Below are positions 3,301 to 25,906 of a stretch of DNA of 64,000 nt, in pieces. Made by a program: the position numbers and the translations under genes. Source of the stretch: a virus; the IMG/VR virus record IMGVR_UViG_3300021406_000010, positions 102,489 through 166,488 of that record, one strand, 5' to 3'. The stretch's first letter is position 1. Each line of letters opens with the position of its first letter. The notes under the pieces were generated by a model, which saw only the letters and a list, made by a program, of their open reading frames with translations, made no database searches and was not told the DNA's origin.

Positions 3301-4730
3301 GCCGGACAGGCCGAGGGCCTCCTGCTTGACGACGAACGCGGTGAGGGTGTAATTGCCCGCCAGGACCTGGATGCCGCCGGAGGCTGCAGCAGGCCGCCGA
3401 AGCAGAAGGCCGGGCCGCCCTGCAGGGGCAGCGCCAGCGGGGCCTGGAACATGGCACCCGCCGGAGCCCAGCAGAACAGCCGCAGGCCGTCCTGCCCGAA
3501 CGCGAAGGCCAGCCGGTCCCCGGGCGCGAAGCTGAACGACCAGGTGCCGGCCGTCCCGCCGCCGGGCAGGGTGACGGCCCAGGTGCCCGCCGAGAAGGTG
3601 AGCGTCAGCACGCTGGTGTCGAGGATGACGTAGGTTCCCTGGTCGGTGCTGGCGAAGGAGGGCATCAGCTCGATCCCGGCCCACCACGGGGAGGAGGCGA
3701 TGGTGCCGGACGCCTGGCCGGGCACGGTGAGCCAGCCGGGCTGGGCGGGGAAGGAGATCCCCGCCGCGACGGCCGACGGCGGGACGGTCCCCCCGGTCGT
3801 GATCAGCCCCGGGGGCACCGGGTCGTCGAGGGCCGCGAAGGAGGCTCCCGGCGGCGGCGGGGAAGGCGACCAGTAGATGCTCATCCGCACCCCGCTGGTC
3901 ACCGGGTCGATGAAGATCCGGTCGGTGACCTGCGGGTTCCCGTTCGCGTCGCGGGAGTCCAGGTACAGCTGGACGACGCAGGACGAGGCGGGCTGCGGGG
4001 CGCACCGCCACGGCAGGCCGCCCAGCAGGCCGACGGCGCGGTTCTCGCGCAGCTGCACGGTGACGGGGCTGCCGTTCAGGTCGGCGGTGGTGGTGAACGG
4101 CTGGCGGAGGGTGGGGACCGACGGGCTGCGGGGCATCGGCGGCACGTCCGAGGACGACAGGACGCGGGTGCCGACGTCGAGGTTCATCGCCCCCAGCGGG
4201 TAGGGGACGGGATGCCCGGACGGGCCGAGGGGGACCTGCTGCCACGGGGCGGGCGCGGCCCGGGTGAGGCGCAACAGCAGCCGGGACGTAACGACGGGCT
4301 GGACCTGCTCGTCGTGGTGAGCCCAGTGGCCGGCCCCGTAGTGGTAGGGGTTCAGCCCGGCGTCCAGGGCGACGGGGCTGTCCACCATGGCGGGCACCGA
4401 CCCGCTGGTGGCGACGGACAGCGGGGCGCCGGAGGATCCGGCGAGCGGCTGCCACAGCGACCCGTCCCACCAGAAGAACGCGGCCACGTGCGGGAAGCGG
4501 GGCAGGTCGACGGCGACGTAGTTGACGATGCGGTCCTGGCCGAGGGAGACGGCGAGCTCCTCGACGGTGGGATCGCCTGCCAGCCGGGGCTGGGAGGACC
4601 AGAACCGCTGGCTGGCCGGCGGGGAGGACGCGGCGGCGGGCTGCGCCTGCGCGACGGGGATCCCGTCGGCGTAGACCGGGGCCACCGAGGGGATGGCGAA
4701 GGACCCGGGAACGCGCAGCGGGGTGGTCAT
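304..4730 (-). CDS. large tail fibre/tailspike with C-terminal glycoside-hydrolase-like domain (frameshifted)
   Basis: Reconstructed product of about 1475 aa. The first ~450 residues (MTTPLRVPGSFAIPS...) are in one frame down to about 3385. The rest (...SGGIQVLAGNYTLTAF... to the stop at 304) is in another, so one nucleotide appears to be missing near 3375-3400. The N-terminal part looks like a baseplate or fibre attachment region. The middle contains beta-rich, jelly-roll-like segments with repeated Trp/Gly turns. The last ~230 residues resemble a TIM-barrel glycoside hydrolase: alternating beta segments such as RRVLLDFRPDA and HVVTVSAAS, then WYPGDDLVDVIAPTFF, which recalls the WYPGDxYVD strand of GH26-like enzymes. 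The ATG overlaps the upstream stop (ATGA). A role in host surface recognition and degradation is inferred; catalytic residues cannot be assigned. Confidence 0.7.
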
Positions 4731-24042: not shown

Positions 24043-24672
24043 TCAGGACGTGATGGCAACCGACAGCGGAGGCGCGCCGGGGTAGAACTGGTCGGTCGCG
24101 GTCACCTGGATCTCCTCCAGGACGGCGAGCTCGTAGGTGACCGGGTCGGAGACGAACTCGCCCACCACCTGGACGGCGAACCCGCGCTCGTAGATGACGT
24201 CCATCGTGCCCCACGGGGTGCCCGGGGCGGCGGCCACGGCGCGGTCCTCGACGCTGTCCCAGCCCCAGGTGGAGGCGATCAGCGGATTGGCCTCCACCAC
24301 CTGGCGGAACTGCGACGGGAATGACGACTGGGCGGCGAAGGCGGTCAGCGACACCAGCTGGTCGTACACCATGTCCCGCTCGTTGGACGTCAGGGCGACG
24401 ATGGTGAAGGTCACGTGGCCGGCGAACTTCCAGCGGGCGTAGGCGTTGCCCGCCGGGTCCTGCTCGGTGTAGGCGATGCCGACGTTGCGGAGCTCGGCGC
24501 CCTCGTAGTCCACCCAGATGGCGGGGTACTGGGCATCATCGACCGGATACTCCACGGACACGTACGGGGGCCTGGTGCCCCCGGCCGGGTCCGGCTCGGG
24601 GTAGCGCACCCGGAAGGACTGCTCGATGGCCTGCACGGCAGAGGTCTTCAAAGACCGGAGGAACCCGCTCAC
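24043..24672 (-). CDS. tail terminator / neck protein
   Basis: A 209-aa protein (MSGFLRSLKTSAVQAIEQSF) of the size and strand/helix pattern of tail-terminator proteins: DAQYPAIWVDYEGAEL, then KFAGHVTFTIVALTSNERD, typical of a sheath/tube capping protein. It lies directly upstream of the sheath gene, where contractile phages encode it. It would cap the tube and join the tail to the head. Confidence 0.65.
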   Translation of the reverse strand: MSGFLRSLKTSAVQAIEQSFRVRYPEPDPAGGTRPPYVSVEYPVDDAQYPAIWVDYEGAELRNVGIAYTEQDPAGNAYARWKFAGHVTFTIVALTSNERDMVYDQLVSLTAFAAQSSFPSQFRQVVEANPLIASTWGWDSVEDRAVAAAPGTPWGTMDVIYERGFAVQVVGEFVSDPVTYELAVLEEIQVTATDQFYPGAPPLSVAITS

Positions 24673-24750
24673 ATGGCTTCCGTGGCACCCGGCAGTTGCA
24701 GCTGCCGGGATGCCCGTTCGGAGCCTGCACCTCCCTCCCAGAGGATGTTA

Positions 24751-24846
24751 GCAAGGAATGCCGTATGCTTGAGGCGCTTCGCAGTTGCAGGGACTTGCTC
24801 TCGCCGGGCAAGACGGCCCGCCTGGGGTGGTAGCCAGGCGGGCCGT
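24751..24846 (+). ncRNA. promoter-hairpin cassette 1 (possible small RNA)
   Basis: AGCAAGGAATGCCG followed by -10 box TATGCT (24764-24769). After about 40 nt comes a 13-bp hairpin (24812-24824 with 24834-24846) followed by a T-rich sequence. There is no open frame of note. A short plus-strand transcript from about 24776 to 24855 is inferred. Confidence 0.4.
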
Positions 24847-24857
24847 TCTCGTCCTTG

Positions 24858-24946
24858 GCAAGGAATGCCGTATGATGGCCATGGCTATTCGCAGTAGCCC
24901 TGGCCGGGTGAAAGCAGGCCGCCCTCTGGTAGCGAGGCGGCCTGCT
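24858..24946 (+). ncRNA. promoter-hairpin cassette 2 (possible small RNA)
   Basis: GCAAGGAATGCCG then TATGAT (24871-24876), and the hairpin 24913-24926 with 24934-24946 (one bulged C). It lies 107 bp after cassette 1 with the same layout but a different loop and spacer, so only the promoter part is conserved in sequence. Confidence 0.4.
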
Positions 24947-24955
24947 CCCGACCTG

Positions 24956-25045
24956 GCAAGGAATGCCATATGATGGCATCATCCCCGCCAGGGGTTAGTC
25001 CCCCTGGCCCGACGGCCCGCCACGGCGGGCCGTTTCCGTTTCCGG
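24956..25045 (+). ncRNA. promoter-hairpin cassette 3 (possible small RNA)
   Basis: GCAAGGAATGCC then TATGAT (24969-24974). An internal CCAGGGG-TTAGT-CCCCTGG hairpin follows, then a terminal ACGGCCCGC-CACG-GCGGGCCGT hairpin (25012-25033) followed by TTCCGTTTCC. It is the third unit of the array, 98 bp after cassette 2. Confidence 0.4.
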
Positions 25046-25204
25046 CTATCCTTGCCATCGGATGCGCAGCGTAGACGGACGTCCCGCAAGGGGCGGCGTA
25101 AGGCGGGGCCGGCTGGCCGGCGGCCGTCCCGCAGTCCAGCCTGGCGCCAGGCGGCACCGAGCGGCATCCTCGGTCCTGGGCCACGGCGCTCCCGGCCCGG
25201 GACC

Positions 25205-25906
25205 CTAGAACCGGGCGCGCCATCCCCGGTCGGCCGCGTAGACGCGAACCGGGAGGATGCCACCCTGTTCAGCGGCCAGCGCCATCGCGTGGTTCAGGAA
25301 CTTGCGGGGAGACAGGCCGGGGTGCCGCCAGCGGACCCCGACGTTCCCCGCCGCGATCGCCCCGCCCGTGCGGCCCGCCGTGGTCCAGGGCGCAGCGGCC
25401 TCGCGCCTGCCGATCCGCCCGGGGGCGCCCGGGTAGGAGGCGAGCACCGTGTACTCCTCCATGGTCCCGTCGGCCTTCCTCCGCCGCCTGGTCAGGCGCT
25501 GGCCGATCGGCGCGGCCCGGCGGAAGATCAGCACCTGCGTCCTGCCCGACAGGGTGACCCTGGTGCGGGCGCGGGGGTTCCGCTCCCGCTCGGTGCCGGA
25601 AGGGTCGTCGACCCACATGGGGATCGTCTTGCCCGCCAGCCCGGTCATGGTGAACGGCCGGATGCCCTGCTCCTGGAACCAGACCCACGAGTCCGCCCAT
25701 CCCACCCCGAAGAATCCCGCTCCGTACAGCGGGAACAGGCGGCTGGCGGAAGCTCCGGTGAGCTTCGGCATGACGCGGCGGGCCTCCCGGACCGCCGCGT
25801 TGGCCATGACGCGGGCGGCGGGTCCCTTGAGGCCGGGGATGAGCATGACGAGGCGGTCCGGGTGCTGCGAGATCATCATCTCCTGGATCTCGGCGAGGGC
25901 GGGCAT
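25205..25906 (-). CDS. neck/head-tail connector-like protein
   Basis: A 233-aa basic protein (MPALAEIQEMMISQHPDRL). VMANAAVREARRVMPKLTG followed by a 'GVGWADSWVWFQEQG' segment recalls HK97 gp10-like/minor neck proteins that join connector and tail, including the late 'L..AM..AA' helix (FLNHAMALAAEQGG). It lies upstream of the tail terminator gene, as expected. The identification is by pattern and order only. Confidence 0.55.
   Translation of the reverse strand: MPALAEIQEMMISQHPDRLVMLIPGLKGPAARVMANAAVREARRVMPKLTGASASRLFPLYGAGFFGVGWADSWVWFQEQGIRPFTMTGLAGKTIPMWVDDPSGTERERNPRARTRVTLSGRTQVLIFRRAAPIGQRLTRRRRKADGTMEEYTVLASYPGAPGRIGRREAAAPWTTAGRTGGAIAAGNVGVRWRHPGLSPRKFLNHAMALAAEQGGILPVRVYAADRGWRARF

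Follow-up and report, generated by a model that had tools for sequence, protein, structure and literature searches.

Type III toxin-antitoxin systems such as ToxIN pair a nuclease with a small structured RNA in defence loci. PhiTE, a phage without ToxN, carries a pseudo-ToxI RNA that suppresses ToxN, and ToxI is a 36-nt repeated pseudoknot acting on that toxin (available part of PMC3475682). Besides, actinobacteriophages make non-coding transcripts of the WC1 type, which are abundant in infection according to the accessible text of PMC10986025. A defence candidate, HEC-09 (PADLOC PDLC04163), is listed among systems correlated with phage susceptibility in the part of PMC12447246 available to us. 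The PADLOC profile of HEC-09 describes the protein only, and no RNA partner is reported in the literature searched, as far as its accessible portions go; the PADLOC paper (PMC8565338, accessible part) describes Hma, and the word HEC does not appear in it. A search of the literature on the NYN domain with defence or RNA, which left out preprints and most subscription papers and reached its sources in part, found no such pair.

The locus described here resembles that of PhiTE in that a short intergenic non-coding RNA of a phage resembles a nuclease-paired bacterial RNA, the nuclease itself is absent and repeats are present. Unlike pseudo-ToxI, as far as PMC3475682 describes it in its available part, the RNA (unit 3, below) is predicted to be a two-hairpin molecule with its own promoter and terminator and with an NYN protein as its putative partner, and it is known from sequence alone. 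It is comparable to the Racr RNA anti-CRISPRs as a phage RNA mimicking a bacterial immune RNA, whereas structure and partner differ, judging from the description in the accessible part of PMC10651486. It shares the intergenic location in a phage with the WC1-type transcripts, for which the available part of PMC10986025 gives no known nuclease link.

The window, i.e., the whole stretch of 64,000 nt analyzed, covers bases 102489 to 166488 of a virus record of 166,488 bases. Since the tail sheath is approximately 30% identical to those of cluster C mycobacteriophages, e.g., Myrna, the source is judged to be an actinobacteriophage-like myovirus. Between two minus-strand genes, a tail-terminator-like gene (24043-24672) and a neck gene (25205-25906), codon-usage gene calling leaves a gene-free insertion of 532 nt (24673-25204), in agreement with the earlier note, which had described a gene-free gap containing three promoter-hairpin cassettes. 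The neck/tail-terminator junction does not exceed 42 nt in 32 of the 50 related loci holding both genes and measures 106 to 2312 nt in the other 18 (not all loci are independent), and is an insertion hotspot. The gap is absent from this junction in the cluster C phages Myrna, E3, and Pupper. A similarity search of the gap DNA against phage records gave no match, and a tRNA search gave none. No family of Rfam release 15 reached its gathering score in the window, and Rfam matches in the gap at E values up to 10 were at chance level, none of them lying on unit 3.

Other long junctions have contents of their own. Among the 18 (from the set L086 to L137), extra genes or a homing-endonuclease-like gene were seen inside. 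L088 (positions 3703-3977) and L089 hold a gene-free insertion of 275 nt with several strong hairpins and repeated GTAAGCG, unmatched by the covariance model R1 described below, and L098 (3685-4764) holds an insertion of 1080 nt with a weak coding signal and degenerate GGCCAGGCGAGGC-like repeats.

The three units themselves were found where the earlier note had placed them: the motif GCAAGGAATGCC(R)TATG(M)T stands on the plus strand at 24751, 24858, and 24956 with 0 mismatches, compared with 0.01 sites expected allowing up to 3 mismatches. The looser motif GCAAGGAAAGCTGTAT occurs at 20 sites in the phage genome versus 0 in the reversed control, and at 34 sites in four relatives versus 0 in the control. 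Of these 54 sites, 50 were classed according to their adjoining genes, as called by a home-made gene caller, and four of the 34 sites in relatives, which had no locus, were left unclassed. At sites adjoined only by a reverse gene (n = 22), the hexamer TANNNT was present on the reverse strand in all 22 and on the forward strand in 4, and the starts of the reverse genes fell mainly at two distances, 12 nt (leaderless) and about 40 nt (led); at sites with only a forward gene (n = 11), forward TANNNT was found in 6 and reverse TANNNT in 4. Nine further sites were divergent, and eight, including the three cassettes, had neither gene. Judged by these contexts, the motif is the phage's general two-way promoter, predicted to drive mostly the strand opposite to the direction assigned in the earlier note, which had thus reached the right outcome (a promoter) by an incomplete description. 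In its reverse reading, CAGCTTTCCTTGC-TANNNT, the two-way motif was also observed at 289, 43449, 46575, 51847, and 53345 of the window and at 12 more places of the same genome outside it; it is conserved in relatives, often with a start codon 6 nt past the -10 (leaderless).

The unit promoters (24751-24769, 24858-24876, and 24956-24974) are variants of this genome-wide element. All three have a forward TANNNT at a fixed place, as expected for a sigma-70 -10: TATGCT at 24764-24769 in unit 1 and TATGAT at 24871-24876 and 24969-24974 in units 2 and 3, respectively. No -35 near TTGACA was found in the units, the best for unit 3 agreeing at 2 of 6 positions, and sigma-70 region 2 (PF04542) was not found in this phage (G000) or in G001 and G004. 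On the reverse strand, unit 1 keeps the -10 hexamer TAACAT (24745-24750), whereas units 2 and 3 have CAAGGA and CAGGTC. Because the reverse -10 is lost and TATGAT is kept, units 2 and 3 are predicted to read against the tail genes, as had been claimed for all three, and could read forward only, whereas unit 1 could read both ways. In IMG/VR, the exact sequence of the cassette promoter turned up in 5 contigs, which are unrelated.

Unit 3 carries the main evidence. Its RNA (24981-25044, plus strand, with a start predicted at about 24981) has a layout of about 60 nt, comprising an unpaired 5' CCCC (24983-24986) conserved in the family, an 8-bp hairpin GCCAGGGG-TTAGTC-CCCCTGGC (24987-25008) that covaries and had been overlooked, a CCGA linker, and a 10-bp covarying terminator hairpin ACGGCCCGCC-AC-GGCGGGCCGT (25012-25033) followed by TTTCCGTTT. 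A homologue was found in a relative (L030) at the same junction and on the same strand, with the -10 TATTCT and the same spacing from -10 to core; its core can be aligned with unit 3 position by position until the terminator is reached, and the differences in the terminator stem are paired changes. A covariance model (R1) was built from these two sequences, and unit 3 scores 89.4 bits with R1, which was partly built from it. The next copy, detected with R1, belongs to G033, a distant phage (45.1 bits, E value of 1.8e-11), and lies behind a helicase gene, at another genomic place and under another promoter, with the cassette motif absent. A search pattern drawn from the three copies gave 10 viral stretches, in which, besides two already known, five of eight scored 38 to 48 bits with R1 (two of them, L148 and L151, are identical in sequence). 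With R2, a model of 16 rows including unit 3, nine of them bacterial rows chosen by visual inspection from 80 of the 118 matches listed in the bacterial pattern scan described below, unit 3 scores 73.5 bits with an E value of 5.3e-17 in its own genome, which is better than the 1e-6 used for membership, and the named isolate Dolichospermum phage Dfl-JY45 scores 49.3 bits. By these covariance models, the members comprise eight phage records, as well as bacteria and plasmids.

In a 20-row alignment, 98.3% of pair cells were standard and 10 of 15 pairs were changed on both sides, although the rows were fitted to a model with the same structure and the pair counts lean towards it; 0 of 500 shuffles were as good, and slid controls reached at most 55%. 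In the covarying stem, GCCRGGG is paired with CCCYGGC, and the loop is mostly NAGYA. Because the search pattern forces CCCCGCC, GGG, and GGCCCGAYG, conservation of these in pattern-found rows is not evidence; the pattern placed no constraint on the pairing partners, the loop, the stem of the terminator, or the -10. CCCC, forced in many members, is independent in L295, L342, and L030. The unpaired CCCC begins the RNA about 7 to 10 nt after a -10, and 16 of 21 members have a NANNNT hexamer 7 to 12 nt upstream, whereas L318 has one at 6 nt; none was found upstream in L148, L152, the second tandem copy of L302, or L295, the last having TTGACA and TTTAAT further upstream. Comparison thus shows an RNA gene and its structure at unit 3, and by these models unit 3 is a member of a new, widespread RNA family without an Rfam match. 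The covariation in relatives that had been proposed as a check was found for this unit, in phages and bacteria alike. Its conservation in bacteria and in further phages, with compensatory changes, strongly supports the prediction that unit 3 is a small-RNA gene reading against the tail genes.

Several weaker matches were set aside. A looser viral pattern (18 stretches) gave a sole scorer, L331 (27.1 bits, E value of 7e-5), which is not counted among the eight; weak R1 matches in 7 other phages look like chance terminators or coding sequence; and MT837326 (L301; 25.9 bits) is doubtful and was excluded. Plasmid BLAST matches in Streptomyces, Rhodococcus, and T. thermophilus (L343 to L346) gave no R2 score.

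An alternative is that the units are transcription signals only, namely minus-strand promoters of the tail operon with terminators, and yield no functional RNA. We gave this reading serious weight, since most occurrences of the motif are reverse promoters, with reverse TANNNT at every reverse-context site; moreover, a hairpin beside the motif terminates the upstream gene in several loci, and unit 1 keeps its reverse -10. The missing reverse -10 of units 2 and 3 argues against it, however, and for unit 3, hairpins serving solely as minus-strand terminators are contradicted, since a mere terminator is not expected to retain CCCC, the loop, and the CCGA linker, which are kept across phages and bacteria despite different promoters. 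The reading was rejected for units 2 and 3, and as an account of the locus we regard it as very unlikely.

The bacterial relatives point to a partner protein. The gene adjoining the bacterial RNA encodes an NYN domain (Pfam PF01936), and this neighbor belongs to the HEC-09 family, with profile E values of 3e-95 and 1e-82; the family comprises presumed ribonucleases located in defence islands. Among the 118 matches listed from the bacterial pattern scan (at least 118 exist), 15 score as RNA (9 of 80 and 6 of 38). An NYN gene stands next to the RNA at 11 of these 15 and next to 0 of the 103 RNA-negative loci among the matches listed, a split taken from all 118 later than the by-eye choice of the R2 rows and including two loci, L234 and L165, that match by construction because their proteins were among the tblastn queries. 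When nine RNA-carrying genomes were searched whole, HEC-09 adjoined the RNA in seven. Moreover, a Thermus oshimai plasmid, found via the NYN protein, has the RNA (58.6 bits) 51 nt upstream of HEC-09, the pair standing between a helicase gene and a methylase gene. We take this methylase to be DUF1156-like and the setting to be Hma-like. Of 396 genomes belonging to a single phylum, 6 encode HEC-09 (E value of 1e-40 or better) and 3 carry the RNA; in G384, the only RNA genome of the 396 not previously chosen, the RNA is 17 nt from HEC-09. Comparison thus shows an association between the predicted RNA and HEC-09, and it is this nuclease, rather than the host mRNAs and tRNAs proposed as targets in the earlier note, to which the comparison points.

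On 14 stronger HEC-09 loci, R2 scores at eight (L302 to L308 and L318) and weakly at L320, with no score at L309, L310, L319, L321, and L322; L319 and L322 have an unscored hairpin and terminator upstream of HEC-09. No R2 match was found at the HEC-09-like loci L298 (E. coli plasmid), L299 (Phaeobacter), L297 (M. abscessus prophage), and L296 (gut contig). Beside HEC-09, the RNA usually occurs once and is oriented divergently from the gene. In six of the proteins, the acidic residues D9, D109, D134, and D136 of the NYN domain are invariant, and a structure model of modest confidence (pLDDT of 67.5) best matches the NYN-like solved structure 2qip (E value of 3.7e-9). HEC-09 thus has a predicted NYN/PIN-like fold, unlike ToxN, whose fold we take to be distinct; its Pfam domain and the nearest structure place it outside the ToxN family. 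Besides, same-strand tandem repeats upstream of the toxin, as in ToxIN, are not the rule here: a tandem arrangement was found only in G053 and the same strand as the gene only in L318. In the former (L302/L234), two RNA copies lie head to tail upstream of HEC-09, which recalls the ToxI repeats. In L303 (1501-2106; G047, a Rubrobacter MAG), the HEC-09 gene is broken by a stop and the RNA is intact.

Unit 3 has no adjacent HEC-09, as the bacterial form does, and represents an orphan form. HEC-09 was found in none of the eight RNA-carrying phage records (G000, G004, G033, G041 to G044, and Dfl-JY45), four of which are fragments of 6, 30, 34, and 59 kb; as with pseudo-ToxI, these phage records have the RNA without the nuclease. 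Comparison thus shows a putative orphan state of the RNA in phages. In bacteria, the NYN gene was absent from the stretch at L179, L187, L220, and L249, four of the 15 RNA-positive loci among the 118 matches listed. Since HEC-09 was not found in the whole genomes of L179 and L187 and an orphan copy (69 bits) lies on the Sulfuricystis plasmid pSTJ2 (L342), some bacteria and a plasmid also have the RNA in orphan form.

We propose that three short RNA genes were inserted into the tail operon and would be transcribed from the plus strand by variants of the phage's own promoter. In bacteria, the RNA may bind and restrain (or license) the NYN nuclease, by analogy with type III toxin-antitoxin RNAs. 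A phage lacking HEC-09 that makes this RNA on infection would keep the host nuclease inhibited and benefit from it, unit 3 being an orphan HEC-09 RNA that would act as a decoy, with the pseudo-ToxI RNA of PhiTE as precedent (PMC3475682, available part). We give this explanation about an even chance. Four RNA-positive bacterial loci without an NYN match, the divergent HEC-09 relatives L309, L310, and L321 without such an RNA (with L319 and L322 unscored), the lack of covariance-model matches to units 1 and 2, and the status of HEC-09 as only a candidate defence gene all weigh against it.

The same association fits with the RNA being an activator or guide of the NYN protein, by which the phage would turn the host nuclease on competing phages or host RNA, for superinfection exclusion or host take-over; sequence cannot separate inhibition from activation, and the RNA could activate. 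Contacts or target pairing could involve the conserved pentaloop and the unpaired CCCC, although the infecting phage would have to be spared by the nuclease that it arms, and orphan RNA copies occur on a plasmid too. We consider this quite unlikely. It is also unlikely, in our estimation, that the RNA is an ordinary regulatory small RNA of the phage whose CCCC pairs with G-rich ribosome-binding sites, its NYN link reflecting processing or shared islands. A C-rich 5' single strand ahead of a hairpin and the bacterial orphan copies agree with such a role, whereas the tight adjacency to HEC-09 (11/15 versus 0/103 among the 118 matches listed) and the spacing of 17 to 51 nt in two independent finds do not. 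Phage solitary-repeat RNAs known as RNA anti-CRISPRs (PMC10651486, accessible part) raise a further reading, in which the hairpin mimics a CRISPR repeat. We consider this highly improbable, given that the covarying stem is GCCRGGG/CCCYGGC, not CCCC with GGGG, and that the bacterial partner is NYN, not Cas. In its favor, the CCCCGCC of unit 3 presumably recalls type I-E CRISPR repeats.

Beyond the decoy proposal for unit 3, we tentatively suggest, at somewhat less than even likelihood, that HEC-09 supplies the protein of a nuclease defence module that is controlled by RNA and has yet to be described, that phages ranging from actinobacterial myoviruses to a cyanophage bear only its RNA, as a decoy, and that the three cassettes of the window form a bank of decoy alleles against versions of the module. 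HEC-09, a defence candidate of unclear working, would thereby gain a likely RNA partner, and phages are predicted to disarm it with RNA alone. If true, RNA-controlled defence would come to include a second class of nuclease, and phage RNA mimicry would extend beyond pseudo-ToxI and RNA anti-CRISPRs. The RNA family is now searchable by covariance model.

Units 1 and 2 gave no homologue. Neither was matched by R1 on the window, and at E values of 0.05 or better R2 gave a single match in the whole phage genome, which was unit 3; small-RNA genes, claimed for all three units, are a plausible proposal for units 1 and 2. Since leaderless forward sites show a 6-nt spacing, the unit 1 RNA is predicted to start at about 24776 (24776-24852, loop TTCGCAG). 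It includes a terminator-like hairpin of 13 bp (24813-24846). The unit 2 RNA (24883-24950) is predicted to have a TTCGCAG-loop hairpin (about 24877-24905), overlooked in the earlier note, followed by a GC hairpin with a poor T tail (about 24912-24949). The strong hairpins that had been described were recovered in all three units, that of unit 2 being long and imperfect; the folding z scores are -3.1 to -4.6. T-containing tails were found in modest form after hairpin 1 (TTCTC) and hairpin 3 and not after hairpin 2, and a strict terminator scan called none of the three hairpins.

The transcribed parts, said to differ among the units, are not wholly unrelated. The local alignment score of units 1 and 3 was reached by 1 of 1000 dinucleotide shuffles, compared with 16 of 1000 for units 1 and 2 and 244 of 1000 for units 2 and 3. 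Units 1 and 2 have the loop TTCGCAG in common, for which a tRNA anticodon-arm reading was also considered. Units 1 and 3 have GACGGCCCGCC in common, and one possible drawing of unit 2 has its loop UCGCA, comparable to GCGCA in L154, closed by a U-G pair. These likenesses suggest three diverged versions of one type, units 1 and 2 being probably diverged relatives of unit 3 that would serve other alleles or other RNA-controlled systems.
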